From Bacteroidia bacterium (GTDB lineage: Bacteria; Bacteroidota; Bacteroidia; J057): a DNA stretch of 64,000 nt. The translations under genes and the position numbers were made by a program. Shown piece after piece: positions 19,202 through 57,828 of the stretch. The stretch covers positions 310,001 to 374,000 of the forward strand of contig JAWPMV010000005.1 in the NCBI GenBank assembly GCA_033391075.1. The letters run 5' to 3'. The number at the start of each line of letters is the position of its first letter. The first letter of the stretch is position 1. Below the pieces are notes generated by a model. The model ran no database searches. It was not told the origin of the DNA and saw only the letters and a program-made list of their open reading frames with translations.

Positions 19202-19315
19202 ATGCCTGGCTTTCAAAAAATTATCTTTTTTTGTGTAATCGGCAGCTTTGTGAGTTTCGGCTTAGCGGGAGAAATCGGCTCTGAGAGCCTGGGAGAAGAG
19301 GATAATAAGAGATAA
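19202..19315 (+). CDS. possible 37-aa leader peptide
   Basis: A small ORF inside leader A with a hydrophobic centre (IIFFCVIGSFVSFGLAG) and an acidic end (ESLGEEDNKR). In leader B the same reading frame is broken by an indel, although the tail GEIGPESLGEEDNKS is still readable. This suggests either a decaying peptide gene or conservation of the DNA rather than of the peptide. Expression is not shown. Confidence 0.25.
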   Translation: MPGFQKIIFFCVIGSFVSFGLAGEIGSESLGEEDNKR

Positions 19316-19343
19316 ACGAAATAACTTCGTTTATGCTAATGTT
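19202..19343 (+). repeat. leader A: attI-like platform before cassette array 1
   Basis: About 140 nt that recur at 54587-54726, directly before the second cassette cluster. The two are most alike over the last 80 nt (GGAGAAATCGG...CCTGAGAGCCTGGGAG, split by one difference) and both end in ...ATG immediately at the GTT crossover of the first cassette. It contains a perfect 9-bp inverted repeat ATAAACGAA/TTCGTTTAT (19312-19320 and 19326-19334). Its position matches that of an integron attI site, but no integrase is adjacent. Confidence 0.55.
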
Positions 19344-20247
19344 GGGTGCAATAAAAAAATGTCAACTCTTAAATATTTTGATACAAAAAACTGAGTATAA
19401 AAATATATGTTGGTGGTGTGGATCAAAGGCTGATTCCCGAGAACATACACATAAGAAAACAGATTTTAAAAGAGTTTTCGGGAATCCACCATATCCAGAA
19501 GTAGATCAACCAATAAAAGCTTTAACTAAAGGAGGTTATCGAAATATTCAAGGTCCAAATTCAAAGGAAATTAAATTTAAGCCTGTTTTATGTAAAAAAT
19601 GTAACAACGAAAGAAGTCAATCATTAGACTTAGCATATGACAAATTCATCAATTGGGTTGAAACTAATACAAACCAGATAATTGAAAATGAGACCATTGA
19701 CTTCAAATTAATATTTGGAAACGATTATCTAGAGGATAAGTTGAACGTTTTGAGATATTATACTAAGCACTTTTGTTGTAGGCTTGCTGAAAATTCTATT
19801 TCTATCTCAAGAGAAATAATAAATTTTTTAAACGGATATGGGAATCTCCAATACTTAATCATAAAGTTTGAAATAAGGTATGATATACTAGCTATGGCAT
19901 TAAGACATCATGAGAGAGGAAATTCTTATCCTTCCCTTTATAAAGCTTCATTGAAATATTTTTATAAAGAAGAAGTTGAGGATGAAATTGATTTTGTCTA
20001 TACATTCTATAATTATAGATGGTTCCGGATTCATTTCCAGTATTCGGAAAGAATCACTAGCACTGATCCAAATTTTGATTGGTATGACGAATACAATGAA
20101 GCAGATATAATTGACGTTCCAACTTTTTACATAATTCCCCCTGAAAAATATCAAGATTGTACAGATAATGAATTGTACGAATTAATCGAGCAGTATAAAA
20201 AGAGGGAATTAGCTGAAGATCAAAATAATTTTTGGTTAGGAATATGA
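19339..20247 (+). CDS. HNH-like zinc-binding protein, cassette 1
   Basis: About 302 aa. The N-terminal part has CWWCGSKADSREHTHKK and later CKKCNNERSQ, a CxxC...H...CxxCN arrangement typical of HNH-type nuclease folds. The rest is a helical domain I do not recognise. The likely start ATG (19339) straddles the crossover: its G is the first base of the GTT core, so the codon is supplied by the leader. A TTG at 19342 or 19378 is an alternative start. Nucleolytic activity is inferred from the zinc pattern only. Confidence 0.6.
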   Translation: MLGAIKKCQLLNILIQKTEYKNICWWCGSKADSREHTHKKTDFKRVFGNPPYPEVDQPIKALTKGGYRNIQGPNSKEIKFKPVLCKKCNNERSQSLDLAYDKFINWVETNTNQIIENETIDFKLIFGNDYLEDKLNVLRYYTKHFCCRLAENSISISREIINFLNGYGNLQYLIIKFEIRYDILAMALRHHERGNSYPSLYKASLKYFYKEEVEDEIDFVYTFYNYRWFRIHFQYSERITSTDPNFDWYDEYNEADIIDVPTFYIIPPEKYQDCTDNELYELIEQYKKRELAEDQNNFWLGI

Positions 20248-20252
20248 AAAAT

Positions 20253-20322
20253 GCACACAACACAAGCTAAGCTCCATACTCCGCTAATGCTACGTACGAA
20301 AGCTTAGCCGCTCGTTATCGGC
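20253..20322 (+). other. attC-like site 1
   Basis: R'' GCACACAAC (20253-20261), L'' GCTAAGCT (20266-20273), L' AGCTTAGC (20301-20308, perfect complement of L''), R' GTTATCGGC (20314-20322). R'' matches the reverse complement of the R' that opened cassette 1 at 8 of 9 positions. Confidence 0.8.
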
Positions 20323-20337
20323 AATTAAAAATAAAAA

Positions 20338-21276
20338 ATGATGAAAAAAGCAACAAACAGGCATTTTGGAGGATCAACAAATGCTTTAGGCTTCACATTC
20401 GTATTTATCCTACTTCCAATACTAGCCTTTACACAAGCAGAGCAAAAGCAATTGAGCCTGGCAGAAAGAGTACAAAATCTTAAGTTGGATAGTACAGAGA
20501 TTGGAGAACTTGCTTATTATTCTGAGGGATATTTAGATCGAGCTGAACTGATAAGTATGGAAATCGAAAGGGCCAGGAAATTCTACTTAGATAGCCTTGG
20601 AATAGAAGTAGAGGTAAAAATCGCCTTGCTCGATACCAATGATTACAATACACTATCTCTTCGCATTCCATATGGACTGCCTTTCGTAAATAACGGGCTC
20701 ATATTCTTACCAGCTGATACATCGACTGGGGCAGTAAAAGATATGTATGCTCCATTTTCAGGTTCTATTTCGGAAGAAGCCAAATCAATTTTAAATAGCC
20801 TTGCAATGGACTATGCCGCAGCATTGAATCGTATGGTTGATCTAATCGGATTACATGAAATAGGCCATGTTCAAAATGATGCTATGGGAATCAATGGCAG
20901 ACAGAAGTGGTTTGATGAATTTATGGCATCCTATTTTGGGTACGCCTATATGCAAAATAACGATACTTCCTTAGCAGGCATTTGGGATGTTTTTACACAT
21001 GCCGGGTTTGAAGGTTATACGCCTACTCATGTTTCGCTAGATGTTTTTAATAAGTTATATTTTGGAGTGGGGTTCGAAAATTATGGATGGTTTCAAAATG
21101 CTTTTCAAGAACGAATAAGAGAGGTATATGCTGCTAAGGGATTAAATTTTATTCGACTTGTAAAAGAAAAACTATCCGATTCATCCTTCCAACCTGCAAC
21201 AGCGCAAGAATTATTAGAAAAGCTGGAGGAAATCGAGCCAGGATTCATAAAATGGGCTGACTCACTAGGAAATTAA
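20338..21276 (+). CDS. secreted zincin-like metallopeptidase, cassette 2
   Basis: A 312-aa protein with an N-terminal hydrophobic signal or anchor (about 18-31, ending AFTQA). It carries HEIGH at residues 173-177 and WFDEFMASYF with Glu194, fitting a gluzincin pattern (HExxH plus a downstream Glu). The first Met is doubled, so the ATG at 20341 is equally likely as start. The named family is not clear. The gene fills its cassette, with the closing attC-like site 12 nt after the stop. Confidence 0.65.
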   Translation: MMKKATNRHFGGSTNALGFTFVFILLPILAFTQAEQKQLSLAERVQNLKLDSTEIGELAYYSEGYLDRAELISMEIERARKFYLDSLGIEVEVKIALLDTNDYNTLSLRIPYGLPFVNNGLIFLPADTSTGAVKDMYAPFSGSISEEAKSILNSLAMDYAAALNRMVDLIGLHEIGHVQNDAMGINGRQKWFDEFMASYFGYAYMQNNDTSLAGIWDVFTHAGFEGYTPTHVSLDVFNKLYFGVGFENYGWFQNAFQERIREVYAAKGLNFIRLVKEKLSDSSFQPATAQELLEKLEEIEPGFIKWADSLGN

Positions 21277-21287
21277 AAGAGAGAAAA

Positions 21288-21316
21288 TCCGATAACATAA
21301 GCTAGTCGTTCCTTTC
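21288..21316 (+). other. attC-like site 2, shortened
   Basis: R'' TCCGATAAC (21288-21296) is complementary to the R' at 20314-20322 at 8 of 9 positions. R' is GTTCCTTTC (21308-21316). Only 11 nt separate the boxes, so the central stem-loop seems deleted. Confidence 0.5.
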
Positions 21317-21323
21317 AATAAAA

Positions 21324-21968
21324 ATGGATAAAATTGATGAGATAAAAGAAAAACTTAAAGAGCTAAAAACTCTTGATTCCAAGTATGAAATATTTGGAGC
21401 CTCTCATCATAAATATGCCTTTAACGAACCAATGACTCTTGATCAACTCGATGAGTTCGAAACAAAATATCAAGTTAAATTACCAACAGATTATAAGCGC
21501 TTCCTAAATAAAATTGGTAATGGAGGTGCTGGGCCATATTATGGTATTCATCCGCTCTCAAGGAATTTGGGGAAATTTAATCCTGAAAATAAGTTTGAGA
21601 ATCTAAAATTAGCGTTTCCTCACTATAGAAAATGGAACTGGAGTAAAAAAATTCTTGATCGGTTTGAAAAACTCAAAGGTGATGAGGACGAGGAAATCGC
21701 GGAGTTTTTTGATACAATATTTTGGCAACAATATGGAAAAGAGGAACTTACCTCAGGAAGCTTATATATATCTGAATATGGTTGTGCTTTAAGATACTTG
21801 TTGATAGTCACAGGTGATGATATAGGGAAAATATGGTTTGACCAAAGGGCTGATCATGATGGAATTAATCCTGTTGTGGATAACAATGGAAAAAAACTAG
21901 ATTTCTATAGTTGGTACCTAGAATGGCTTGATAAATCAATAAATGAAATAAAGAAACAAGGAAGCTAA
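21324..21968 (+). CDS. SMI1/KNR4 (SUKH) family protein, cassette 3
   Basis: A 214-aa cytosolic protein. The motif LDQLDEFETKYQVKLPTDYKRFLNKIGNGG near 35-65 is the core of the SMI1/KNR4 fold, and a Gly-rich GAGPYYGIHPL follows. Many SUKH proteins are immunity proteins against nuclease-type toxins, and they are frequent integron cassette cargo. No toxin partner is seen next to it. The stop codon lies within about 3 nt of the next attC-like R'' box. Confidence 0.82.
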   Translation: MDKIDEIKEKLKELKTLDSKYEIFGASHHKYAFNEPMTLDQLDEFETKYQVKLPTDYKRFLNKIGNGGAGPYYGIHPLSRNLGKFNPENKFENLKLAFPHYRKWNWSKKILDRFEKLKGDEDEEIAEFFDTIFWQQYGKEELTSGSLYISEYGCALRYLLIVTGDDIGKIWFDQRADHDGINPVVDNNGKKLDFYSWYLEWLDKSINEIKKQGS

Positions 21969-22029
21969 CAAAACCTAAACTCCATACTCCGCTGAGGCCG
22001 CGTACAGCGTTTAGCTAGCCCTTATCAGC
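21963..22029 (+). other. attC-like site 3
   Basis: R'' GCTAACA, L'' CTAAAC (21975-21980), L' GTTTAG (22009-22014), R' TTATCAGC preceded by C instead of G. The loop shares the CTCCATACTCCGCT block with site 1, so these sites belong to one related group. Confidence 0.6.
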
Positions 22030-22050
22030 AACTTGAAAAATCGCACAAAA

Positions 22051-22386
22051 TTAAAAGCGTTTCTTTACATTAGCCAAAGCGCCCCACTCAGCAACAAGCT
22101 GAATTAAAGGGATTAATGTTTTACCAAAATCAGTCAAAGAATACTCAACTTTCAGTGGGGGTTTTGAATAAAAGACTTTTCTTTTAATTATTCCATCTTC
22201 TGTTAATGATTTCAACTGTAAACTTAGCGTACGCTCGGTAACTGTTGGCATTTTCTTTCTTAGCTCATTGTATCGTAAGGTTTCGTCCAACAAATAATAT
22301 ATGATAGCTGCTTTCCACTTCCCACCAATAACGCCCATTGTTAAACTAGAACAACAAGGATATTCTTTTCCATTAAAATTGTACAT
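22051..22386 (-). CDS. HxlR-family transcriptional regulator, cassette 4
   Basis: A 111-aa winged-helix protein. It has the HxlR order: a N-terminal CCSS (Cys11-12), MGVIGGKWKAAIIYYLL, YNELRKKMPTVTERTLSLQLKSL (recognition helix) and LKVEYSLTDFG (wing). It is divergent from a DinB gene 163 nt away, with two inverted-repeat operator candidates between them. It is one of the few cassette genes on the minus strand. Control of the DinB gene is a reasonable inference. Confidence 0.88.
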   Translation of the reverse strand: MYNFNGKEYPCCSSLTMGVIGGKWKAAIIYYLLDETLRYNELRKKMPTVTERTLSLQLKSLTEDGIIKRKVFYSKPPLKVEYSLTDFGKTLIPLIQLVAEWGALANVKKRF

Positions 22387-22427
22387 ACTTCTATAATTAG
22401 TCCAACTATACTTATTGACCGTTATTG

Positions 22428-22435
22428 CAAATATA
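22428..22435 (-). promoter_or_regulatory. candidate -7 box TATATTTG for the HxlR gene
   Basis: Read on the minus strand it matches TAnnTTTG exactly. It lies 42 nt upstream of the start codon and adjacent to the inverted repeats at 22447-22474. Confidence 0.5.
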
Positions 22436-22446
22436 GCCTACTTTAA

Positions 22447-22474
22447 ATAGTATTGCTACTATACTATTTATAGT
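22447..22474. promoter_or_regulatory. candidate HxlR operators
   Basis: Two overlapping inverted repeats: ATAGTA-TTGC-TACTAT (22447-22462) and ACTATA-CTATT-TATAGT (22458-22474). The TAGTA/TACTA half-sites are the same as in the palindrome at the first HxlR locus (8679-8688). Confidence 0.5.
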
Positions 22475-22549
22475 GATTTATATCATGGATAATAGTTCAA
22501 TATTTCATATTGATTTCCAACACTATTTTAAAAGAAAAAACAAGGTAAA

Positions 22550-23008
22550 ATGAGAGAAACAGCAAGCAAATTAGACGGACTTTTGAACATAATAAAGGAG
22601 TACATTGCTAAATCCTCTGATTCAGAACTAAGCTTTAAAGCGAATTCTGAAAAATGGTCGAAGAAAGAAATTATTGGCCATTTGATTGATTCGGGAATCA
22701 ACAATACAAAGCGTTTTACAGCAGTTCTAATTGAAAAAGAGCCGTATAGGATTAGGCCAATGAAACAAGTTGAACTAGTGAAAGTAAATGATTATCAAAA
22801 TTCTGAAATAGAAGAACTTTTAGCTTTACTATTGTCTATCAATATTCGAATAAAAAAGCTGATGCTTCTGCAAAACACACAAACACTAGCTACAAAAATT
22901 GAATTATATACTAAAGGAAATATGTCTGATTTGAGATACTTGATGGAAGATTATGTTGCACACTTTGAACAACACCTAAATCAATTATTGAAGCCAATAT
23001 CCGCATAA
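22550..23008 (+). CDS. DinB-family protein, cassette 4
   Basis: A 152-aa four-helix protein of the DinB_2 type: WSKKEIIGHLIDSGINN near 37-53, and DYVAHFEQHLNQL near 133-146, with the His residues that would bind the metal. There is no signal peptide, unlike the DinB protein at 17483. It is divergent from the HxlR regulator in the same cassette. The function is unknown; a thiol-transferase or damage-response role is only family-level inference. Confidence 0.8.
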   Translation: MRETASKLDGLLNIIKEYIAKSSDSELSFKANSEKWSKKEIIGHLIDSGINNTKRFTAVLIEKEPYRIRPMKQVELVKVNDYQNSEIEELLALLLSINIRIKKLMLLQNTQTLATKIELYTKGNMSDLRYLMEDYVAHFEQHLNQLLKPISA

Positions 23009-23148
23009 TACAGAAGTTTATGTGAGTATACTTGCAAATTGAAGGATTTAAAGAGCAGCTGCTAAGAATGTATATGAAATCATGGCTTCCATCCGGTCGC
23101 CAGGATTCATAAACTAAATGTTATGTTTGCAATTGATAATTAAAAACG

Positions 23149-23196
23149 ACGACTAACAAAGCACAGCTGTCCGAGGCATATCTAGTCGTTCTAGCC
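23149..23196 (+). other. attC-like site 4
   Basis: Inverted repeat ACGACTA/TAGTCGT (23149-23155 and 23183-23189) followed by R' GTTCTAGCC (23188-23196). The R'' box is unclear. A further inverted pair AGTTTATG/CATAAACT (23015-23022 and 23108-23115), followed by GTTATGTTT, may be the remains of a second site just upstream. Confidence 0.5.
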
Positions 23197-23211
23197 CATT
23201 AAAATGAAAAA

Positions 23212-23940
23212 ATGAGAACACTCGGTTTAATAGGGGGAACATCATGGCATTCAACAATTGAGTATTATAGATACATTAATCAAAAAGTAAATGATTATTT
23301 TGAAGATAACACCAATCCTCCTTTAATAGTGTATACTTTAAATCAATCTTTAATACATCAATTACAAAGAGAAAACAATTGGGAAGGGATAGCTGAGTTA
23401 CTCATTGAAGCCGCAAGAAGTCTTGAAAAAGCTGGTGTAGATATGCTAATGTTTTGTGCTAACACACCTCACAAAGTTTATCATCTTGTCGAACAAGCAA
23501 TTGATACTCCAATACTACACATAGCAGATGCAACTGCTGAATCTCTTAAATCAAAAAATATTAAAAAGGCTTGTTTTTTGGGAACTAAATATTCTATGGT
23601 TGAGAACTTTATTACAAAAAGAATAACAACAAATAATATTGAGGTAATTACTCCAAACAAGGATAATATCATACATGAATTACATCGAATAATTCAAGAA
23701 GAATTGACATATGGAAATATCATCCCTCAATCTAAAGATTATGTAATTAGCATTATTCAATCATTTGTCAAGATTGGCGCAGAAGGTGTCATATTAGGAT
23801 GTACAGAATTTCCATTAATGATAAAAGAAACTGATTTGCAAATCCCGATTTTCAATACAACAGAGATACATGCAAATGCAGGAGCAAATTTTATTTTAAA
23901 AGATTTAAAAAAAATAAAAACAGGCTACAACAAAGCATAA
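23212..23940 (+). CDS. aspartate/glutamate racemase family protein, cassette 5
   Basis: A 242-aa protein with the family order: GLIGGTSWHSTIEYYR at the start, catalytic Cys82 in MFCANT, and the second Cys196 in LGCTEFPLM. Both catalytic cysteines are present, so it can be an active amino-acid racemase; the substrate cannot be read from sequence. The R'' box of its closing attC-like site (23923-23931) lies inside the last codons, so cassette end and coding end overlap. Confidence 0.85.
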   Translation: MRTLGLIGGTSWHSTIEYYRYINQKVNDYFEDNTNPPLIVYTLNQSLIHQLQRENNWEGIAELLIEAARSLEKAGVDMLMFCANTPHKVYHLVEQAIDTPILHIADATAESLKSKNIKKACFLGTKYSMVENFITKRITTNNIEVITPNKDNIIHELHRIIQEELTYGNIIPQSKDYVISIIQSFVKIGAEGVILGCTEFPLMIKETDLQIPIFNTTEIHANAGANFILKDLKKIKTGYNKA

Positions 23941-23995
23941 AACGGCAATTGTTAACAAAAGCTGGCAACTGCGTTTAGGCGAGGACGTTATCTCT
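23923..23995 (+). other. attC-like site 5
   Basis: R'' GGCTACAAC (23923-23931) pairs with R' GTTCTAGCC at 23188 (8 of 9). L'' GCATAAAACG and L' CGTTTAGGC form an imperfect stem. R' is GTTATCTCT (23987-23995). Confidence 0.75.
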
Positions 23996-24006
23996 TAAGT
24001 TAAAAT

Positions 24007-25176
24007 ATGAAAGACAAAATATTCATATTGAATGAGACTGGCTCTCTCTCTGAGCTAACCGAATCAGGTTATGATAGTGAGGAATTGTTGCAATCTCTTC
24101 TTGAAAAATACCCTTCATTATTAGCTGGAGGTCAAATAGATGAAATTCAGCCCCGAAGGTGGATACTGATCTCCAGGGAGATTGGGATACCTGATGATTC
24201 TGAAAAAGGGAATAGATGGGCAGTAGACCATTTATTCATAGATCAAGAAGGAATCCCAACCCTGGTAGAAGTAAAAAGAAGTTCGGATACAAGAATCAGG
24301 CGAGAAGTTATAGGTCAAATCATGGATTATGCTGCAAATGCTGTTTCATATTGGTCAGTAGAAAAGCTAATGTCCATTTATGAAAAATCATGTGAAGAAA
24401 ATCAGGAAGATTCAAGCGACAATATTAATGAACTGGTTGAGGGAACACTCGATTATGAAGAATATTGGGAATTAGTTTCTACAAATTTGAAAGCAGGGAA
24501 GATTAGAATGATAATTGTTGCCGATAATATTCCCAAAGAATTAAAGAATATAATTGAGTTTCTGAATTCGCAAATGTCTCCAGCAGAAATACTTGGGTTA
24601 GAAATCAAGCAGTACCGGAATGAGACAATGAAAACATTAGTACCAAAAGTCTTGGGTAAATCTGTGAAATCTGATGCTTCAAAAAGAATCAGAAGTTCAG
24701 TTTCAACAGAGATTTCGGAAGATGAATATTGGAGGGTCTTTCAGGTCCACTCAGGAAAAGCATTGCTCCAAATTGGCCAAAGAATCATAGACGGGATTAA
24801 AGACTACAAAGACTATTATTGGTTTGGAGGTAGTGGTATAGTAAGTGGATATGGCCACTCGATGGTTCCTGTAAAGAAAGCTAATTTCCCAAATAGTAAT
24901 CGAATCAATATTTACCCTATTGCCCTTTGGACAAATGGTTCAGTAGAAATTAGCTTGCAATACTTCAAAGGGCGCGGGCATTTCGATCTAGAGGAGAATC
25001 AGAAAGAATTGATTGACAGGCTAAATGAAATTGAGGGAGTTGATATTGGATATGAAAAGATCTTCAAAAGACCGAGTATTAATCTTGGGCTATTTTCAGA
25101 GCCAAATGTACTTGCAAAATTCATCGAGTTGATAAGATGGGTTTTTGAAAAAAGTATGGAAAAAAAAGAGAGATAA
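24007..25176 (+). CDS. PD-(D/E)XK nuclease-like protein, cassette 6
   Basis: A 389-aa protein. The PD-(D/E)XK core is readable: Asp74 in WAVDHLFID, Glu88-x-Lys90 in LVEVKRS, and Gln104 in VIGQIMDYA, followed by the DYAAN segment common to NucS/DUF91-type nucleases. The C-terminal half is unassigned. It has all core catalytic residues and so may cut DNA. Its role could be defence or repair. The stop codon sits inside the R'' box of the closing attC-like site, as is common for cassette genes. Confidence 0.75.
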   Translation: MKDKIFILNETGSLSELTESGYDSEELLQSLLEKYPSLLAGGQIDEIQPRRWILISREIGIPDDSEKGNRWAVDHLFIDQEGIPTLVEVKRSSDTRIRREVIGQIMDYAANAVSYWSVEKLMSIYEKSCEENQEDSSDNINELVEGTLDYEEYWELVSTNLKAGKIRMIIVADNIPKELKNIIEFLNSQMSPAEILGLEIKQYRNETMKTLVPKVLGKSVKSDASKRIRSSVSTEISEDEYWRVFQVHSGKALLQIGQRIIDGIKDYKDYYWFGGSGIVSGYGHSMVPVKKANFPNSNRINIYPIALWTNGSVEISLQYFKGRGHFDLEENQKELIDRLNEIEGVDIGYEKIFKRPSINLGLFSEPNVLAKFIELIRWVFEKSMEKKER

Positions 25177-25240
25177 CATTGACTACGTGCTATGCCTTGC
25201 TATCGTGTCTGCACCAGCGCGTAGTCATATCGTTAGCATA
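25169..25240 (+). other. attC-like site 6
   Basis: R'' AGAGATAAC (25169-25177) is the exact reverse complement of R' GTTATCTCT at 23987. L'' GACTACG (25181-25187) and L' CGTAGTC (25220-25226) are perfect complements. R' is GTTAGCATA (25232-25240). It is the cleanest site in the array. Confidence 0.85.
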
Positions 25241-25246
25241 CATAAA

Positions 25247-25651
25247 ATGAATCAGAAAGAAAAAGAGTTCCTAGATGACTATGAAGCATTGTTTCGTTCA
25301 AATCGGAACGCACTCCCTGAATCTTCAAGTCATAAAAATCCTAAAATGGAATATCACGTGTTGGCGGATGGAGTTTTTTGGGATGATGAAGGATTAAGGG
25401 AATTAGAATGGGAACTTTCTAATGCTTTTAGGTTCGTGATAAATTTTAGGACCAAGCTAATAACCAACTCCAATGAGCCAAATGAGTTCTACCAACAAAT
25501 ATATAAACTAGCACAAAGGTATTTCCCAAACTGGATTGGATTCAAGAAAGAACGATGCAGTCATAATGAGGAGCTAGCCGAAAGGATTGAAAGAATCAGA
25601 AAGGTCTCAGGTTGGAAGGTTGACAAAACATTTAAAGAACTTGAGGATTGA
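25247..25651 (+). CDS. hypothetical protein, cassette 7
   Basis: A 134-aa protein starting MNQKEKEFLDDYEALF. The longer frame from 25145 runs through the attC-like site and is not plausible. It is mostly helical and charged, with no signal peptide and no motif I recognise. It starts 7 nt after the R' box and ends 4 nt before the next R'' box. Confidence 0.6.
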   Translation: MNQKEKEFLDDYEALFRSNRNALPESSSHKNPKMEYHVLADGVFWDDEGLRELEWELSNAFRFVINFRTKLITNSNEPNEFYQQIYKLAQRYFPNWIGFKKERCSHNEELAERIERIRKVSGWKVDKTFKELED

Positions 25652-25655
25652 AAAC

Positions 25656-25725
25656 GAATGCTAACAAAACCTAATCTACATACTTCGCTAAGGCTGGGTG
25701 CAGAGTTTAGCTGATCGCTGTGAGT
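25656..25725 (+). other. attC-like site 7
   Basis: R'' GAATGCTAAC (25656-25665) pairs with R' GTTAGCATA at 25232 (8 of 9 over the shared box). L'' CCTAATCT and L' AGTTTAGC form an imperfect stem. R' is GCTGTGAGT (25717-25725), a C for T change in GTT. Confidence 0.75.
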
Positions 25726-25737
25726 AATAAAAAAATA

Positions 25738-26043
25738 ATGGGAAAAATTGTCTGTAAAAGCCACGGGACTCAAGTCCTAAGTTTTGTGTCTAAGTTCCAT
25801 CAAAAAAAAATAGCAGGAGCTGAACCCAGTCACGAAAGTGAAATAAGATATGTAGAGGTAGACAATAAAGAAGAAAATATCCAGGGGACATTTTTAGTAG
25901 ATCCCAATATCTTAACGCAATTAGATAGACATGAAAAAGTATCGAAATTGAAACTGGATTCCTCGGAATTCAATAAGATATTTAGCGATTTACAAGCTGT
26001 TTGCTCTACTTGCTTGCAAGAGTACTTAGCAAGAAAAATATAA
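25738..26043 (+). CDS. small Cys-rich hypothetical protein, cassette 8
   Basis: A 101-aa protein. The ATG at 25738 is chosen because the upstream GTG lies in the R' box. It has an early Cys-x-x-His (CKSH) and a late Cys-x-x-Cys (CSTC), which together could bind one zinc. I do not recognise a family. Its cassette closes with R'' ACTCACAAC 1 nt after the stop. Confidence 0.5.
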   Translation: MGKIVCKSHGTQVLSFVSKFHQKKIAGAEPSHESEIRYVEVDNKEENIQGTFLVDPNILTQLDRHEKVSKLKLDSSEFNKIFSDLQAVCSTCLQEYLARKI

Positions 26044-26044
26044 T

Positions 26045-26093
26045 ACTCACAACAAAACCTATGCTCAAATTCTTTTGACGCATCCGAAAAAAA
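26045..26093 (+). other. attC-like site 8, truncated
   Basis: R'' ACTCACAAC (26045-26053) matches the R' of cassette 8 at 8 of 9 positions. No matching L' or R' follows; instead the sequence runs into a DUF6090 fragment. The array appears broken here. Confidence 0.5.
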
Positions 26094-26258
26094 ATGTTCT
26101 TTGAAAATAAGACCGGTAAATATCTCCTCTATGCCCTGGGGGAAATCTCCCTGATTATCATAGGTGTCATGATTGCCTTAACGGTTTCAGAGTGGAATAA
26201 TAACCATACAGACGGAGCCTACGAAAGAGAGATGTTGACCCTAATAAAACGGACATAG
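26094..26258 (+). pseudogene. DUF6090 N-terminal remnant (54 aa)
   Basis: It encodes only the start of a DUF6090 protein: FENKTGKYLLYALGEISLII with a membrane helix to about residue 32, then SEWNN. The family is normally about 220-250 aa. A stop follows at codon 55, and a one-base shift just before it would restore TDIEDEYLE for a few codons before another stop. It is likely a degraded fragment. Confidence 0.6.
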
Positions 26259-26309
26259 AAGATGAATATCTGGAATGAAGGAAAAAAACGAATCACCCAC
26301 AAAGCCTAA

Positions 26310-26657
26310 AAATCAGTTCTCAAATATGCTGGTGCAACATTGCCAAAGCGCGATGCTGTTGATTCACAAATTATCGAAGAAGCTCGCAATAGTAAAGCAA
26401 GCTATGAAGGGATATACAAAACCAAGAAAGAAGTTACTGACGATTCAAAAATTACTGGCATCATTGATACACAAAGAGACGTGGCTGGCTGGCCGGAGTT
26501 GAAAAGTATGCCACCGCCAAAGGATACCGATCATGACGGAATGCCGGATAAATGGGAAAAGAAAAATGGGCTTAATCCAAAAAATGAGGATGATAAAAAC
26601 AATGTCGGGGAAGACGGATACACTATGTTGGAAAAATATTTAAATAGCATAATATAA
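26310..26657 (+). pseudogene. pectate-lyase C-terminal remnant
   Basis: An open frame without an upstream start: a stop sits at 26307-26309 and the first codons read VLKYAGATLPKRDAVD. The end has DTDHDGMPDKWEKKNGLNP and DGYTMLEKYLNS, the characteristic tail of secreted pectate lyases in Bacteroidota. The catalytic beta-helix is absent. It lies just after the DUF6090 remnant and between cassette sites, so this whole 0.6-kb piece looks like non-cassette DNA left by a deletion or insertion. Confidence 0.6.
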
Positions 26658-26663
26658 TACACG

Positions 26664-26746
26664 ACAGCATAACATCAGCTTCCGCTAATTTCGCTCGAAG
26701 CCAACACCTAAACCCAAAAAACTACCGATAGCTTGTCGTTGGGTGT
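26664..26746 (+). other. attC-like site 9
   Basis: R'' ACAGCATAAC and R' GTTGGGTGT (26738-26746) with ACACCTAAACCC about 25 nt before R', which can also pair with it. The R' box finds a partner (CCACCTAAC) at 28909, where the cyclase cassette ends. Confidence 0.5.
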
Positions 26747-26799
26747 CATAATCTTACAGAAAAAAATTCTTTGGCTGTGTAAAATAAAATGAATGAATT

Positions 26800-28755
26800 A
26801 TGTCCTACACCAGAAAACTTGCCTCAATAATGTTTACAGATATTGTTGGTTATACCAAGTTAATGCAAACCAGCGAATCAGCAGCGATCAAACTCAGGAA
26901 TCGACATAGAGAAGTGTTTGATTCCTTTCATGAATCTTATCGGGGTAGGATAATCCAATATTATGGAGATGGCACATTAAGTATTTTTGAGAGTGCAGTA
27001 GATGCTGTTCGTTGTGCTATTGAAATTCAGCGGAAGTTGCGAAAAGAGCCAGAAGTTCCGCTCAGGATCGGCATTCATCTCGGAGATATTTTGCTCAGCG
27101 ATACGGATATTATTGGAAATAGCGTAAACTTAGCTGCTAGGGTAGAATCCTTGGGGGTTGCCGGAGCCGTTTTGGTTTCCAATAAAGTAATGGAAGAAAT
27201 CAAAAACCAAGACGACATTCCCTGTCAGCTTATGGGAAACTATCATTTTAAAAATGATTCACATCCCCGAAATATCTATGCTATATCTGCATCCGGATTG
27301 CTCCTTCCTTCAACGGATCAGCTTTCAGGTAAACTGGAAGCCTCATCACAAAAGAAGGAGATTGAATCTTTAGCGGTCTTGCCATTTGACAATTTCACTG
27401 GAGAAAAGGATCAGGACTATTTAGTAGGAGGTATACATGATAACCTTATTACCGCATTATCTCAAATCAGTTCATTGCGCGTCATTTCCAAAACCTCGAC
27501 ACTACGCTATAAAAATTCGAATAAATCCATCCCAGATATTGCAAAAGAACTAAATGTGGATGCAATTGTAGAAGCCTCGGTTTCAAAAATCAAAGACAAA
27601 ATACAACTCAATGTTCAGTTGATCCGGGCTTTCCCAGAGGAAAATCATATATGGGCAGACATTTTTGATCGGTCTTTAGATAGTATTTATTCTCTATTGA
27701 ATGAAATTACCAAAACCATCTCAGAGAAGATCAATTTGGTACTTACGCCTAAAGAAGCAGAAAGTTTGTCTCACTCTCCCAAGGTAGATCCACAAGCATA
27801 CCAGACTTATCTGAGGGGCATGTTTCACTGGGAAAAACTATCAGCTAAAGACTTTGAGATTGCTAAAGAATATTTTGAAAAGGCGATTGCTATAGACCCC
27901 TCCTTTGCGCCCCCTTATGCTGCAATCGCTCATACTCTGATCGGGCAAGTGCAGATGGGCCTGATCGCTCCTCCTGAAGCTATGCCCAAAATCTATCAAT
28001 ACAACATGAAGGCTTTGAGGCTTAATTTCAACTTTTCCGAATCCCATTATATGAATGCCATTTTGAGTTATGTGGTAGAATGGGATTGGGAAAAAAGTGA
28101 AGCTGAGTTCATCAAATCTTTGGATGGAAATCCTAACCATTCACTTTCTCATGCTTATTATGGTCATTTACTTATGATTTTGAACCGCTTTGAGGAAGCG
28201 ATCAGTGAGGTGAATATTTCTCTGAAATTAGACCCCAATAATCCATTGGTTCAATCATTGGCAGGGGTGGTATTTTTTCATTCTGGTGACACCCAACGGG
28301 CATTTAGCTTAGTCAATAAATCTCATCAGATTGATCCCAATAACATCCTGAATTATAGGTTCCTTGAAAGCTGTTATGTAGAGTTCGAAGAGTATGACAA
28401 TGCCTTCGAAATGCAGAAAAAAATCAATTATTCGGATCCGCAGGCTTGCCAGGCATTGGATGAAGGGTATGCAAATAAAGACTATTCCCAAGCGATGCTT
28501 GCGCTCGCTCAATCCAGAGAAGAACTTAGCAAAAAGCAATTTGTACAACCCGTGTGGGTAGCCTTGGCTTACCTTAAAGCAGGCTTAAATGAGAAAGTTA
28601 TTCAATGGCTTGAGCAAGCGTTTCAAATGCATGATCAGGATCTGCCATATGTATTTATTGCTAAGGAGTTTGCTCCTTTTATGCAAGATCAACGCTTTAT
28701 TCAAATCGCAAAAAAAATGAATCTGCCTATTGGAAATATTTCACTCAAAAAATAA
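26800..28755 (+). CDS. class III adenylate/guanylate cyclase with TolB-like and TPR domains, cassette 9
   Basis: A 651-aa cytosolic protein. Residues 5-165 are a class III cyclase domain with metal-binding Asp14 (FTDIVGYT) and Asp57 (YYGDGT) and the NxxxR pair in GNSVNLAARVES. About 185-325 is a TolB-like N-terminal domain (AVLPFDNF, GGIHDNLITAL, RVISKTS). About 330-640 holds tetratricopeptide repeats. This three-part layout is common in Bacteroidota and Proteobacteria. It probably makes a cyclic nucleotide in response to a protein partner. It is large for a cassette gene and has about 50 nt of its own upstream sequence. Confidence 0.85.
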   Translation: MSYTRKLASIMFTDIVGYTKLMQTSESAAIKLRNRHREVFDSFHESYRGRIIQYYGDGTLSIFESAVDAVRCAIEIQRKLRKEPEVPLRIGIHLGDILLSDTDIIGNSVNLAARVESLGVAGAVLVSNKVMEEIKNQDDIPCQLMGNYHFKNDSHPRNIYAISASGLLLPSTDQLSGKLEASSQKKEIESLAVLPFDNFTGEKDQDYLVGGIHDNLITALSQISSLRVISKTSTLRYKNSNKSIPDIAKELNVDAIVEASVSKIKDKIQLNVQLIRAFPEENHIWADIFDRSLDSIYSLLNEITKTISEKINLVLTPKEAESLSHSPKVDPQAYQTYLRGMFHWEKLSAKDFEIAKEYFEKAIAIDPSFAPPYAAIAHTLIGQVQMGLIAPPEAMPKIYQYNMKALRLNFNFSESHYMNAILSYVVEWDWEKSEAEFIKSLDGNPNHSLSHAYYGHLLMILNRFEEAISEVNISLKLDPNNPLVQSLAGVVFFHSGDTQRAFSLVNKSHQIDPNNILNYRFLESCYVEFEEYDNAFEMQKKINYSDPQACQALDEGYANKDYSQAMLALAQSREELSKKQFVQPVWVALAYLKAGLNEKVIQWLEQAFQMHDQDLPYVFIAKEFAPFMQDQRFIQIAKKMNLPIGNISLKK

Positions 28756-28781
28756 GGAACGCCCTACATTAATAAGATTAA

Positions 28782-28916
28782 CCGATAAAATATGAAGAGC
28801 ATTCTTATATAAGTATTGGAAGCTTTAATTCTAATGATTATAAAGAACTAATAGGTGAGTATATTTCACCAAAAGTTGTAAACAAATTAGAAATCAAAAA
28901 AGAATACGCCACCTAA
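28782..28916 (+). pseudogene. 3' remnant of an older cassette gene
   Basis: A 44-codon open frame with no start (it begins right after a stop), readable as KYEEHSYISIGSFN and ending KKEYAT. The stop codon lies inside the R'' box of attC-like site 10, where cassette genes normally end. The cyclase gene may have replaced the 5' part of this gene. Confidence 0.35.
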
Positions 28917-28981
28917 CAATGTGTATGAAGTTCATTGCGAGCAAAAGCTCACAACGCCATATACACGGGCCCCTTGTCGGT
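28909..28981 (+). other. attC-like site 10
   Basis: R'' CCACCTAAC (28909-28917), L'' GTGTAT (28921-28926), central GAGC/GCTC hairpin, L' ATACAC (28961-28966), R' CTTGTCGGT (28973-28981) with C in place of G. Confidence 0.75.
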
Positions 28982-28998
28982 CATAAAAAATAAAGAAG

Positions 28999-29493
28999 AT
29001 GAAAGAAATATTACTAGTCTTTATCCTAACAATATCATTGATTTCTTGTACGGAGAATAAGAAAAACGAGCCAGAGGTGTTTGACAAACAAGCTGAGTCA
29101 GCAAAAATTCTGAAATCGATTGAAAATTGGAATTCTGGATGGGAAACAAAAAATGTTGAACTGGCGATAAAGGATTATTCGGAAAAGACAGATTGGACAA
29201 ATGCCTTCGGTGCTAGAGTTCAATCAAAAGAAGAATTACAAGAACTTCTGGAAGAAATATTCGCTATGGATTTTGTTATGGAAGGAAAAGATAGTTACAA
29301 AAACGAAGCTGTTGAATTTCTTAGTAATGAAATTGCGCTGCTACGCTCAATAAATATAAGAACGGGACAAAAATGGAGTGATGGAAGCTTAATGGAAGAC
29401 AGACACATACATCACCTAAGAGTATTTCAAAAAATAGGAAACGAATGGCAAATAATAAGCCATATGATTAATCAAGCTAATGAAAAAGATTAA
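28999..29493 (+). CDS. SnoaL/DUF4440-like lipoprotein, cassette 10
   Basis: A 164-aa protein with a lipoprotein signal (lipobox LISC, Cys17). The mature part fits an NTF2-like fold of the DUF4440/SnoaL type: ENWNSGWETKNVELAIKDY, later DRHIHHLRVFQKIGNEWQIISH. It is likely anchored in the periplasm or outer membrane. The ligand is unknown; no catalytic claim can be made. Confidence 0.7.
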   Translation: MKEILLVFILTISLISCTENKKNEPEVFDKQAESAKILKSIENWNSGWETKNVELAIKDYSEKTDWTNAFGARVQSKEELQELLEEIFAMDFVMEGKDSYKNEAVEFLSNEIALLRSINIRTGQKWSDGSLMEDRHIHHLRVFQKIGNEWQIISHMINQANEKD

Positions 29494-29500
29494 AAAACAA

Positions 29501-29550
29501 ACCGACAACAATCCGTATTGTGCTCATAGCTGAGGTTTGGCGTTATCGCT
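29501..29550 (+). other. attC-like site 11
   Basis: R'' ACCGACAAC (29501-29509) pairs with R' CTTGTCGGT at 28973 (8 of 9). R' is GTTATCGCT (29542-29550). It is short, with a weak central stem. Confidence 0.7.
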
Positions 29551-29567
29551 TAAGAGAATAAAAACAT

Positions 29568-29807
29568 ATGTTATTGCTTTCGACTGTTCATACTTTACTC
29601 AACTTGGTAGGATACGAGATGTCTGCAATGTATAGGCTGAAAACAGGTTTATTCTGGATGGGATTTGCATTGATGATAATCCATATCTTTAATAGAATAA
29701 GAGGGACAGATAAAAAGGGTATTAAAAAAGCAATGATATCCATTATTGTTACCATTGGGATTATTCTTTCAATATCATGGGCGGAGTATCTTGTTAACGC
29801 TTACTAA
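29568..29807 (+). CDS. small membrane protein, cassette 11
   Basis: A 79-aa protein with two to three hydrophobic segments (about 2-16, 28-42 and 56-72) and a basic loop RIRGTDKKGIKKA between the last two. No family is recognised. It fills a 0.34-kb cassette. Confidence 0.5.
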   Translation: MLLLSTVHTLLNLVGYEMSAMYRLKTGLFWMGFALMIIHIFNRIRGTDKKGIKKAMISIIVTIGIILSISWAEYLVNAY

Positions 29808-29819
29808 TGAGAAATTTAA

Positions 29820-29891
29820 ACCGATAACATCAGCTACACCCCAGCCGGCAGCTAAAGCAGTCGTCCGAAGTCTAGCTACCCTTTAGCGGAG
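29820..29891 (+). other. attC-like site 12 (first copy of 58-bp repeat)
   Basis: R'' ACCGATAAC pairs with R' GTTATCGCT at 29542 (8 of 9). R' is CTTTAGCGGAG. Positions 29821-29878 are identical to 31847-31904. Confidence 0.7.
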
Positions 29892-29967
29892 GGAAAAATA
29901 TAAGCCCCTATTTTTTTACGTCTAAAATTGGAGTTGATAAACAGAAATTTCCTCCTATTACATTTAA

Positions 29968-30507
29968 CTATAGAAGAAGATTAGAGATTTCACTCCAACC
30001 ATTTACTCTTTCATGTTTATGTCCATTTTCATTAAAATTATGTGGTTGTGTAAATAAAATGGTTCTTCCTTCAAAAACATCTAGATTCTTAAAATGATCA
30101 TCGATCATTATATCTCCTTGAATAACTCTTTTTGATCCACATAAAACGATTTGTTGCCATGAAATGAAAGGAAAATGTTCTTCAAGCCAGTAATATTTTT
30201 CGCCGAGACTATTTGGGAATTGGGTAGCTGAAGACACAATAAATATTTCAAACTTTTTGCCCAACTTTTCTAATACCTCGACTGCTCCTGGTATTACCGG
30301 GGAATTTCTAAAAAAACCTTTCATCAGAAGGTGTTTTCGACTATTTGGAAATGCTTCCACTTCTGATATTCCCCAAGTATCCTGTAGATCAATCTTGTTT
30401 CCTGTCTCTTGCAACTCTTCCTTTATATACTGAGAATAAATATCAGCCAATACACCGTCCATATCTACAATTAGTCTTTTTTTAGTCTTCATCATTGATT
30501 CATTCAA
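29968..30507 (-). CDS. 5'(3')-deoxyribonucleotidase-type HAD phosphatase, cassette 12
   Basis: A 179-aa HAD-superfamily protein. Motif I is DMDGVLAD (Asp15 and Asp17), motif II is in IVSSAT, and MIDDHFKNLDVF is motif IV. The size and the late IDDHFKN motif fit the NT5C deoxyribonucleotidase-like group. The start may be the internal Met6. It is on the minus strand within a three-gene cassette. The substrate is inferred only. Confidence 0.78.
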   Translation of the reverse strand: MNESMMKTKKRLIVDMDGVLADIYSQYIKEELQETGNKIDLQDTWGISEVEAFPNSRKHLLMKGFFRNSPVIPGAVEVLEKLGKKFEIFIVSSATQFPNSLGEKYYWLEEHFPFISWQQIVLCGSKRVIQGDIMIDDHFKNLDVFEGRTILFTQPHNFNENGHKHERVNGWSEISNLLL

Positions 30508-30549
30508 TTGTGAAAATTTTTTATGTAAAATGTCAAATAAATAATTGCC

Positions 30550-30822
30550 TCATACTTCATTTTGACGGGATGGTTCCTTTAACTTGAAAATGAGAATTGT
30601 CAAAGTGAGCACCAGCGTTATCGAATTGCATATAATTAGAGGGAAAAGCTCATAAAGTAAGCCATAGACTAACCAGCTGGAAATACCTATTACCATAACC
30701 ACATACATGGGCAATGAAATGGCCTTCGTATCACGAGTTCTCACGATCATTATCACCTGTGGCAAAAAACTCGAGGTGGTTAAAAATGCAGCAATGTTTC
30801 CTATCCAAAACCCAAAATCCAT
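30550..30822 (-). CDS. SemiSWEET-family sugar transporter, cassette 12
   Basis: A 90-aa three-helix membrane protein with the TSSFLPQV (PQ) motif in helix 1, KAISLPMY before helix 2, and SWLVYG. This is the bacterial SemiSWEET/MtN3 half-transporter, which works as a homodimer to carry sugars. It is transcribed away from the AraC gene 133 nt away, so it may be regulated by it. Confidence 0.85.
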   Translation of the reverse strand: MDFGFWIGNIAAFLTTSSFLPQVIMIVRTRDTKAISLPMYVVMVIGISSWLVYGLLYELFPLIICNSITLVLTLTILIFKLKEPSRQNEV

Positions 30823-30955
30823 ATTAAGCTTTAATTATTAGTTAAACATATCAACCAAACTTATGGGCTGCATTCATCTTTGGCATCCACTTTATTGATG
30901 AAATTCTCCTCTTTTTTAGCGTATTTGTACTGAGTTAGTTAAAAAAGTATATCAC

Positions 30956-31804
30956 TTGAGAATTGAGGCAGAAAATATTGTTAAAAATATTGGTAGCTCC
31001 CTATCCGTTGGGAAATACGGAATTTCGGATTTAGCCAAAATTAGGGGATTGCATTGGCATCCTGAATTTGAATTGATCTATATATCAGGCGGTTCTGGGA
31101 AAAGGTTTATCAACGGACATGTAAGTCATTACGAGCAAGGGGACTTAGTTTTCCTTGGGCCAAACATTCCACATGCTGGCTTCAAAGATTGTGTTCTACA
31201 AGGCTATTTTCAAGTTGTAGTTCAATTTGGAAATCTATTTGGCGGAGAATTTCTTGAGAATGTTGAGCTATCTCCATTGAGACGATTGTTGAAAAATGCG
31301 AAAGGAGGTATCGTGTTTTCTGATAAGGTAAAAAAGGAATTAGCTGAACCATTTAAGAATTTAATCTCCCTTTCGAACTTTGAGCGTTTTTTTTCATTTC
31401 TACATATCTTGAAAGTGCTCTCGAAAGATGAGTATACCAGTTTGAATTACAACCAGACTCATATTATTAAAGAACCCAGGGAGCGGATTCGGTTTGAAAA
31501 AATCCTTAGCTATATAAAAACCCATCACAATGGACGACCTCAACTAGATGAGCTTGCTCAGCTAGTTAATATGCATCCATCTTCTTTATGTAGATTCTTA
31601 AAACTGAATTCATCGAAAACGTTTATTGAGCTAGTTAATGACTTTAGAATTCAAAAATCGTGTACATTACTAATAGAAAGCGATTTAACAATAACACAAA
31701 TTGCCTTTGAGTCGGGCTTTCGTACCCTTTCTTTTTATAACAAAAAATTCAATGAACTCATGAAAATGAGTCCAAGTCAATATAGAAAGTTATACCATGT
31801 TTGA
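30956..31804 (+). CDS. AraC-family transcriptional regulator, cassette 12
   Basis: A 282-aa protein with an N-terminal cupin sensor (GLHWHPEFELIYI near 29, FLGPNIPHAG near 71) and a C-terminal double helix-turn-helix (LDELAQLVNMHPSSLCRFLK and ITQIAFESGFRTLSFYNKKF). The frame has no ATG near its N-terminus; the TTG at 30956 is the likely start. It is divergent from the SemiSWEET gene and may control it in response to a sugar. Confidence 0.85.
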   Translation: MRIEAENIVKNIGSSLSVGKYGISDLAKIRGLHWHPEFELIYISGGSGKRFINGHVSHYEQGDLVFLGPNIPHAGFKDCVLQGYFQVVVQFGNLFGGEFLENVELSPLRRLLKNAKGGIVFSDKVKKELAEPFKNLISLSNFERFFSFLHILKVLSKDEYTSLNYNQTHIIKEPRERIRFEKILSYIKTHHNGRPQLDELAQLVNMHPSSLCRFLKLNSSKTFIELVNDFRIQKSCTLLIESDLTITQIAFESGFRTLSFYNKKFNELMKMSPSQYRKLYHV

Positions 31805-31844
31805 ATGGAAACTTTCTTAGCTAAAATTAAATTAAGGTGAAATC

Positions 31845-31916
31845 CTCCGATAACATCAGCTACACCCCAGCCGGCAGCTAAAGCAGTCGTCCGAAGTCTA
31901 GCTAACCCTCAGCAGC
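31845..31916 (+). other. attC-like site 13 (second copy of 58-bp repeat)
   Basis: R'' CTCCGATAAC pairs with TTTAGCGGAG at 29882 (8 of 10). R' is CTCAGCAGC (31908-31916), far from GTT. The middle is identical to site 12 over 58 bp. Confidence 0.65.
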
Positions 31917-54487: not shown

Positions 54488-54586
54488 GTCTGCAAGGCTT
54501 AAGCCTACATTTATGCTTCCTCGCCCCGGAGGATTGACTTGATATTTGAGGCGAATTTGAGGATATTTATCCTGAACGAAAACGCA

Positions 54587-54726
54587 ATGCCTTCCACCTA
54601 TAATTTCAAGAATTTTCTTATTAACGGTAGCTTTTCGTTTTCGGGTTAGCGGGAGAAATCGGCCCTGAGAGCCTGGGAGAAGAGGATAATAAGAGCTAAA
54701 CGAAATAAATCGTATACACTGATGTT
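54587..54726 (+). repeat. leader B: attI-like platform before cassette array 2
   Basis: Homologous to leader A (19202-19343), best over the last 80 nt, and also ending in GATG|TT at the first cassette crossover (GTTAGAGGC, 54724-54732). The peptide frame of leader A is broken here. The region 54488-54735 contains no gene. Confidence 0.55.
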
Positions 54727-54735
54727 AGAGGCAAG

Positions 54736-56112
54736 GGTAGTGTTTCACCAAGTGTGTCATCGATTAATTGGCTAAACATTTTTTCCGGGAAAAGGCCTTC
54801 AAAAAGACCAGGTCTTTTCCTGGGGAAAATGAGCGTGAGGGTCATAAGTCAAGTTTGAGCCTATCGCCAAAGATAATGGATAATTTAGACAAGGTCTGGT
54901 TCCAGTTGTGGACAGGCCTTGTCCATTTTTTGGTAACATCATTTTGTACCAGGTAGAGTAATTTCATCAAGCCCTCATCAGAGGTAAAGGCCCCTTTGGT
55001 TTTGGTAACCTTCCTTAGCTGACGATTAAATCCTTCGACGATATTTGTGGTATAAATAATCCTACGGATCTCATAGGTATACTGGAAATATTTGCTCAAA
55101 TGTTCCCAGTTCCTTCGCCAGGAATCGATGATGGCTGGATACTTCTTTCCCCAGTTGGCTTCCAGCATATCGAGGTTGCGCTCAGCCAGATCTAGATTGG
55201 AAGCCTGATAGACCGTTTTTAACTCCTTGATAAAGGCTCGGGTATCATTCCAGGCCAAGTACTTCTTCGAGTTACGGATCTGGTGGACGATACACAGTTG
55301 AACCTCGGTCTTAGGGAAGATACTTTCGATGGCCTGGGTAAAGCCCGAGAGATTGTCTATGCAAGCAATGAAGATGTCCTCAACGCCTCTGTTTTGTAGG
55401 TCTGTGAGCACCTGGAGCCAGAATTTTGAGCTTTCTCCGCCTACTTCTCCCAGATAAAGACCCATAACTTCTTTGTAGCCCTCCTGAGTCAAGCCCAGCA
55501 CACAATATACCGCCTTGGTTACCACTCGCCCCTCAACACGCACTTTGTAATGGATCGCATCCATCCAAACGATTGGATAAACCGCTTCCAAAGCCCGACC
55601 TTTCCATTCCTGCAAAAGCGGCAATACTTTGTCTGTAATCCGGCTAATCGCTGCGGTCGATACTTCCAGGCCATACATCTCTTCGAGATAATCACGGATA
55701 TTGCCATAGCTTGAACCTCGTGCATAAAGGGCCAGAATCTGACGGTCTATATCTTCTCCCAGGGTTCTTTTGCGCTTGGGAAGTAGTTTGGGAGAGAAGC
55801 TCCCATCTCGATCTCTGGGCGGAGAGATTTCAACTTCCCCTAAGGAAGTCTTTACTCGCTTTTTTCCCCGGCCATTTTTTCGATTGCCTTTAGGACCTTC
55901 ATCTAGATGAGTTTCCAACTCTCCCACTAGACTCTCTTCTAAAAAGTCTTTCAGTAAGGAAGTCAAGGCTCCCTCTTTGCCTAGAAGGCTACCTCCGGAT
56001 TGTAATTTCTCCCGGGCTTCCTCTTTAAATTTTTCGTAATCAAATTTCTCTTTTGCCATTGTATGTCAAGTTAAGTAGTTTCTAACTTTGACACACTTTG
56101 GGAAACAGTCTC
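54736..56112 (-). mobile_element. IS256-family element, copy 1 (1377 bp)
   Basis: Ends GGTAGTGTTTCACC... and ...GGGAAACAGTCTC form 24-bp imperfect inverted repeats (18 of 24 match). An 8-bp target duplication GAGGCAAG flanks it (54728-54735 and 56113-56120). It is identical in length and, as far as I compared, in sequence to copy 2. It sits 4 nt inside the first cassette of array 2. Confidence 0.92.
54842..56059 (-). CDS. IS256-family transposase (Transposase_mut), copy 1
   Basis: A 405-aa protein with the mutator-type DDE core: Asp167 (VWMDAIHYK), Asp235 (ACIDNLSGF) and Glu342 (NIVEGFNRQLRKVTKTKG). The region IVHQIRNSKKY is also typical. The length is normal, and the protein is identical to copy 2, so it should be active. 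Confidence 0.95.
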   Translation of the reverse strand: MAKEKFDYEKFKEEAREKLQSGGSLLGKEGALTSLLKDFLEESLVGELETHLDEGPKGNRKNGRGKKRVKTSLGEVEISPPRDRDGSFSPKLLPKRKRTLGEDIDRQILALYARGSSYGNIRDYLEEMYGLEVSTAAISRITDKVLPLLQEWKGRALEAVYPIVWMDAIHYKVRVEGRVVTKAVYCVLGLTQEGYKEVMGLYLGEVGGESSKFWLQVLTDLQNRGVEDIFIACIDNLSGFTQAIESIFPKTEVQLCIVHQIRNSKKYLAWNDTRAFIKELKTVYQASNLDLAERNLDMLEANWGKKYPAIIDSWRRNWEHLSKYFQYTYEIRRIIYTTNIVEGFNRQLRKVTKTKGAFTSDEGLMKLLYLVQNDVTKKWTRPVHNWNQTLSKLSIIFGDRLKLDL

Positions 56113-56141
56113 GAGGCAAGCAAGAAAAAAGAAATATAAAA

Positions 56142-57071: not shown

Positions 57072-57076
57072 AGCCA

Positions 57077-57148: not shown

Positions 57149-57175
57149 AATAAAACAATGTGCTAACCTAAAAAA

Positions 57176-57748: not shown

Positions 57749-57828
57749 ATACCAGGATTAACATTAAGAATGATTAAAGGAATAAAGATTAAAACTGCAC
57801 AAAACAGTACCTATCCCCTATTCTCCGC

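Follow-up and report, generated by a model that had tools for sequence, protein, structure and literature searches.

The window analysed here is the whole stretch of 64,000 nucleotides, located at C5:310001-374000 of a genome of 9.49 Mb in five contigs (G000), which we searched in full. Two leaders, A and B, lie in the window, and each stands at the head of an array of ORFs with attC-like sites. The features are the following (window positions):

19215-19343, + strand: leader A, a solo attI-like site, with a BLAST-supported start at 19215 and the GTT crossover at 19341-19343
19311-19333, + strand: short inverted repeat of leader A (ATAAACGAA...TTCGTTTAT), read from the fold, just 5' of the crossover in the core of the putative attI
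19341-20314, + strand: cassette 1 of array A, starting with GTTGGGTGCA; ORF at 19333-20247, then an attC-like hairpin that runs to the following G^TT at 20314
20314-31910, + strand: rest of array A, ORFs with attC-like sites between them (e.g. 23147-23198 and 25171-25232); the right end, 31910, was placed by eye
54579-54726, + strand: leader B, the second solo attI-like site, with the GTT crossover at 54724-54726
54724-57139, + strand: cassette 1 of array B, starting with GTTAGAGGC and with an IS256-type element inserted close to the start
54842-56059, - strand: Transposase_mut (IS256-type) gene, inserted in cassette 1 of array B and not part of the integron
57079-57141, + strand: attC-like hairpin closing cassette 1 of array B (bottom-strand fold)
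57139-57827, + strand: cassette 2 of array B, with a GNAT acetyltransferase ORF (57176-57748); a second IS256-type element interrupts its attC
57935-59152, - strand: second Transposase_mut (IS256-type) gene, which interrupts the attC of cassette 2 in array B

The two leaders are homologous, as the initial annotation had proposed for 19202-19343 and 54587-54726, and align at 85% over 112 nt (E 1.4e-28, BLAST). The genes found 3' of the GTT differ between leader A (19341) and leader B (54724). Furthermore, it had been claimed that no integrase lies beside either copy. This agrees with our tblastn search with the integrase found elsewhere in the genome (termed “native” below), which returned nothing at E < 2 upstream of A or B, whether as a gene or as a remnant. 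A recombinase does adjoin a third copy, on contig C1.

Cassettes and attC-like sites of arrays A and B

An integron cassette starts with bases (R') whose reverse complement recurs as R'' at its end. In the cassettes described here, the attC-like arms come after R''. For cassette 1 of array A, the R'' (TGCACACAAC at 20252) pairs with GTTGGGTGCA with 1 mismatch in 10, a pairing that taken alone has a chance rate of 0.18, and no exact match longer than 6 nt was found. As for cassette 1 of array B, an exact 9-nt match is located ~2353 nt further on (57076 onward), beyond the inserted IS. Two bottom-strand attC folds were compared with shuffles: the one in array B stands out clearly (z -2.81, 57075-57145), and that of array A cassette 1 does not (z -0.74, 20250-20320). 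Some attC-like sites of array A appear truncated or decayed, and array B is short and broken by the two Transposase_mut (IS256-type) genes. These two genes have equal length and equal Pfam score.

The cassette region of array A contains genes for a SUKH-type protein (21324-21968), an HxlR regulator on the opposite strand (22051-22386), an Asp/Glu racemase (23212-23940) and an adenylate/guanylate cyclase with TPRs (26800-28755). Two near-identical attC-like sites, at ~29.81 kb and 31.85 kb of the window (CGATAACATCAGCTACACCCCAGCC...), are unlike the other sites of this array. Directly after the last attC-like site begins a gene of the beta-lactamase family PF00144 (31932-33332), which includes many other serine hydrolases too.

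Five leader copies and the native locus

The whole-genome search gave five copies of the leader, with A and B in the window and three more on contig C1. The neighbours of two of these were named from a reading of their ORFs:

C1:807437-807565: “pyrD” copy, 3' of a gene read as dihydroorotate dehydrogenase
C1:2802781-2802894, - strand: “native” copy, downstream of a gene for a 372-aa tyrosine recombinase
C1:5827336-5827377: “pgk” copy, 42 nt only, 3' of a gene read as phosphoglycerate kinase

The native leader lies 152 nt past the stop codon of the 372-aa recombinase ORF (locus L003), and integrase, leader and cassettes are co-oriented at this locus. An exact R'/R'' match is present after four of the five copies, namely B (GTTAGAGGC, 9 nt), pyrD (GTTATGCTC, 9 nt), pgk (GTTAGGTGGC, 10 nt) and native (GTTATAGTCA, 10 nt). 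Counting copy A, with its one mismatch, a cassette with R'/R'' follows all five. The initial annotation had viewed the leader as a possible attI, and this view gains support from the copy adjoining the recombinase and from the further copies heading arrays, both of which were found in this genome and in relatives. Copies lacking a cassette, which it had named as evidence to the contrary, were not found in this genome; in relatives, 4 of 11 extra copies have no cassette signal.

Among the ten pairwise BLAST comparisons of the five copies, nine show homology stopping 3-19 nt beyond the start of the GTT. This bears out the earlier observation that the leaders end at the G^TT crossover and then diverge. 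The exception is A against the pgk copy, with homology reaching 33/37 nt beyond. We attribute the overshoot to the cassette starts being semi-conserved (GTTRGCGGYAA-like). In terms of the leader extents first reported, the right edge at the GTT holds, while the left edges are approximate only: homology 5' of the GTT covers 126 nt for A and the pyrD copy, 145 nt for B and the native copy, and ~200 nt for the longest pair, the pyrD and native copies. Left of 19215, leader A has a weaker alignable stretch to ~19177 (GATATTGA), which matches the final codons of the gene for the native integrase.

We also considered the leader as the attC of a last cassette and rejected this candidate, since by eye its end has no R''/L'' partner and the same site adjoins an integrase. 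Given its copies, the one beside the recombinase and the R'/R'' pairing behind each, we regard an attI as the very probable identity of the leader.

The recombinase and its relatives in Bacteroidota

A search of 149 relatives gave integrase matches at E up to 1e-40 in 80 of them. By hand count, 49 relatives have a match extending into the N-terminal domain (query start no later than residue 40). We then looked for R'/R'' pairs of 9 nt or more, no further than 200 nt from the gene and requiring at least 700 nt of flank, in these loci and in 80 named loci. Downstream of the stop codon, 29 of 54 loci have such a pair and 25 do not, and upstream of the start it was found in 5 of 65. Random windows from the same loci contain it in 101 of 926 cases (10.9%) and 125 of 1096, partly since such windows fall in arrays. 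Other tyrosine recombinases have it in 0/19 cases downstream and 1/14 upstream, and the few IntI-type controls in 2/7 upstream, the usual side for IntI, and 1/10 downstream. Three long variants (L090, L093 and L099) gave 0/2 downstream and 1/3 upstream. These integrases measure 676-720 aa, come from Marinilabiliaceae and another Bacteroidetes, and form a long-branched clade (100/100).

Alignment at the GTT of 28 of the 29 positives (L054 excluded) reveals a T/A-rich core around CGTATATA...AA 5' of the GTT and a cassette start like GTTRGCGGYAA. An inverted repeat of at least 6 is found in 13 of these 28 putative attIs, compared to 17% in shuffles, and the dyads are related to that of leader A. 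Judged by position, the order of integrase, attI-like site and cassettes recurs in Bacteroidota. In several assemblies the integrase lies only ~40-250 nt from a contig end on the attI side (e.g. L022, L030, L042, L043, L045), as if a repeat breaks them.

This recurrence bears on whether the leader could be a mobile or regulatory repeat (a transposon end, a REP-like element or a 5' UTR) that lies 5' of genes by chance. Its multiple copies, small hairpins and sharp left end would fit such an element. Against it, all copies in the genome end at a cassette junction, one is fixed beside a recombinase, and in other Bacteroidota leaders of unrelated sequence hold the same position, so that we consider this explanation very improbable.

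As for the family of the enzyme, the native ORF has matches to Phage_integrase and to a SAM-like core-binding domain. Among the NCBIfam models it scores highest with that of the integron integrase, TIGR02249, at 216.9 bits against a cut-off of 265, with XerA, XerC and XerD behind, and its top Foldseek match is IntI4. With the IntI model NF011946 it scores 135.4 bits, below the cut-off of 435, and no match above that cut-off was found genome-wide. The catalytic residues R227, K252, HxxR 316-319, H342 and Y351 are invariant across 22 aligned proteins.

The spacing from the K to the HxxR is 65 residues in the native protein and 64-70 in all 64 measured loci of L020-L087, compared to 106-107 in 11 IntI-type proteins. 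From its sequence, the recombinase is IntI-like but without the ~42-residue IntI insertion. For this measurement, 12 of 110 loci gave no protein (L036, L056, L060, L078, L091, L108, L109, L110, L117, L119, L122 and L123), and L114 was left out of the IntI set, its spacing of 108 being attributed to a false motif match.

Analysis of a tree of 94 rows (L053, L097 and L098 additionally excluded) groups the 11 IntI rows as a single clade (100/99) with the Bacteroidota rows outside it, although the deep forks outside this clade are weakly resolved. Of the 64 rows that carry the label “HARP_Bact”, 61 group on the far side of a 94/90 fork, along with two Bacteroidota rows that lack this label. The three outside this fork are an archaeon, a Spirochaetota and a Firmicutes MAG. 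The “HARP” label was assigned from the locus number and the length ahead of the K motif rather than from a domain search, and includes the non-Bacteroidota loci L057, L074 and L077; with its rows partly outside the main group, it does not correspond to one clade (five changes). The archaeal L057, from a MAG labelled Candidatus Undinarchaeales, lacks the insertion and is sister to IntI (99/94). It is possibly a pre-insertion relative, or misbinned.

These results also speak to a canonical integron whose ordinary IntI has diverged and lost its additional domain. The TIGR02249 and IntI4 matches point that way. The uniform short spacing and the IntI clade free of Bacteroidota rows point away from it, with the caveat on the deep forks given above, and we hold this origin to be unlikely.

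The recombinase also carries an N-terminal domain of ~78 residues, predicted at pLDDT 92.9. In a Pfam search of 27 such domains (E up to 1), DUF5710 was matched by 7 and HARP (PF07443) by 3, the best at 4.8e-4; at the same threshold the native protein has no PF07443 match. The top structural match is to the N-terminal halves of XPB (Z 7.0, rmsd 2.0 over 62 residues, Foldseek E 0.057), and at Z < 8 the fold may simply be a common arrangement. Foldseek gave nothing at E up to 0.001 for this domain, with no HARP structure among the matches listed. The predicted model is suggestive of a HARP/XPB-DRD-like domain. HARP and XPB domains are tied to forked or distorted DNA, a link that appears in PDB titles such as that of 6p4f (XPB-Bax1-forked DNA). 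Because of this link, the N-terminal domain could help to grip a folded attC and, by analogy, may replace the missing IntI insertion in recognising it.

Solo attI-like sites and the proposed integron system

Leaders of this type appear to diverge fast, given that the attI of genome G002 was matched in G002 alone when searched in 13 genomes of its family; each genome therefore needs its own attI as query. With seven genomes searched in this way, extra attI copies free of integrase were found in four, and cassettes follow in three of those. There are four extra copies in G000, two in G002, six in Rufibacter sp. SYSU D00344 and three short ones in G010. With their own attI as query, Algoriphagus ornithinivorans and Flavobacterium aciduliphilum gave no extra copy. 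An R'/R'' match follows 4/4 extra copies in G000 (A with one mismatch), 2/2 in G002 (10 and 9 nt), 5/6 in Rufibacter (8-10 nt) and 0/3 in G010. The copies without this signal are L135 in Rufibacter and L141-L143 in G010, and those of G010 lie partly at contig ends. The G010 matches are short (34-57 nt), and two of the three share sequence beyond the GTT.

The left ends of the solo copies tend to recur. In G002, one solo is 96-97% and the other, older one 81% identical to the native site, and both start within the last ~14 codons of the integrase, no more than one base apart and with unrelated flanks. In G000, the pyrD solo starts 200 nt 5' of the GTT, at codon 358 of the native gene. Among five Rufibacter solos, 113-116 nt 5' of the GTT are common to 8 of 10 pairs, with one pair at 93 and one at 346. 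Judged from these alignments, the solo copies resemble discrete units, ~115-200 nt long, whose left end recurs. At this end we noted by eye a TTTG-N17-TAGATATTG-like motif, read against the Bacteroidota promoter consensus, which may mark a candidate promoter. We also considered by eye whether the integrase itself might produce the left end by acting at a GTT-like core (in G002, the top-strand GAAAAAC at the boundary), and rejected this, as the shared sequence begins outside the putative cut.

A second integrase gene is present in G000 at C2:170298-171371 (L018:10299-11372), 82% identical to native residues 1-358. The match of this paralogue to the native gene (79% DNA identity) stops within 2 nt of the solo-unit start. 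It is followed by an inverted-repeat element (AGGGTATCACGAA... to ...TTCGTGATACCCT), with no leader.

Arrays A and B have clustered attC-like sites and no integrase nearby, as in the CALIN described in part of PMC9024848, which are attC clusters lacking an integrase and proposed to be degraded integrons. Unlike these, both are headed by an attI-like site, a feature absent from the CALIN definition in that part of the source. The solo leaders could accordingly be relics, with whole integrase-attI-array loci duplicated, the integrase lost and CALIN-like fossils remaining. A partly decayed case of this kind may be seen in Winogradskyella ursingii, where a second attI (L147, G152:C16:511212-511349; 94% identical) is preceded by ~540 nt of integrase homology with no frame > 200 aa, and the two IS elements in copy B and the truncated look of several array A attC sites would also suit decay. 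The solos of this genome have no detectable integrase remnants upstream, though, and random decay is expected to give ragged left ends, whereas both G002 solos stop at the same integrase 3' end point and the Rufibacter solos share their unit. Such a fixed left end is hard to account for by decay alone, and we regard the relic origin as possible but rather doubtful.

We favour the leader as the attI of an integron-type system of Bacteroidota, with the window copies as solo platforms probably served in trans by a distant integrase, and consider this likely. An integrase made at one site would serve the attI next to its gene and also act in trans, adding cassettes at the solo attIs. By inserting and removing cassettes at these distant sites, it would produce several arrays per genome. 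On this reading the window copies are ~150-200 nt of the native platform that lack the integrase, and each stands in front of a separate set of cassettes. The cassettes close with attC-like hairpins and meet at G^TT junctions, and a cassette promoter may lie in the leader.

When compared to known systems, the arrangement shares with IntI integrons of the sedentary chromosomal type a tyrosine recombinase beside the attI, mostly co-oriented ORFs with imperfect inverted repeats between them, the G^TT junction and R'/R'' pairing. In contrast to those, the Bacteroidota recombinase lacks the IntI insertion and has an extra N-terminal domain, it lies upstream of the attI in cassette orientation where the IntI integrase is divergent, and several attI-headed arrays are present per integrase. 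By its defining feature this is not an IntI integron, and as far as sequence tells it would work like one.

The layout with the integrase pointing toward the cassettes is already known. The “atypical” Treponema integrons, as presented in part of PMC3607928, have an integrase that reads toward attI and in the same sense as the cassettes, as here. By their description in the same part, they differ in having one attI per integron, and their proteins were collected as intI homologues.

The extra domain is reported in part of PMC9024848 to distinguish IntI from other integrases and to allow the use of folded single-stranded attC. In the relevant part of PMC8138268 the insertion is called essential for integron function, and members without it are not tied there to cassette arrays; the Bacteroidota proteins may belong to the integron-like tyrosine recombinase subgroup of that work. 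A survey chose its proteins by the additional domain or patch (PMC2426708, in part). For Bacteroidetes, the sections of PMC9024848 on this group mention In0 alone at first and, later on, a single complete integron from Salinibacter ruber. In the CC0, CC BY and CC BY-SA literature we found no description of an insertion-less integrase with its own arrays and dispersed attIs.

Finally, we give about even chances to a broader proposal, that Bacteroidota have an integron lineage of their own. Its recombinase would have arisen apart from IntI, would use folded attC without the additional domain (perhaps through the HARP/XPB-DRD-like domain), would read toward attI and, in some genomes, would serve several attIs copied as 115-200-nt units. 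If true, this insertion-less lineage would be a second solution to the use of folded single-stranded attC and would account for integrons seeming near absent in Bacteroidetes. Dispersed attIs would break the rule of one acceptor per integron and, with one integrase running a multi-site cassette network, would turn single arrays into a genome-wide capture network.
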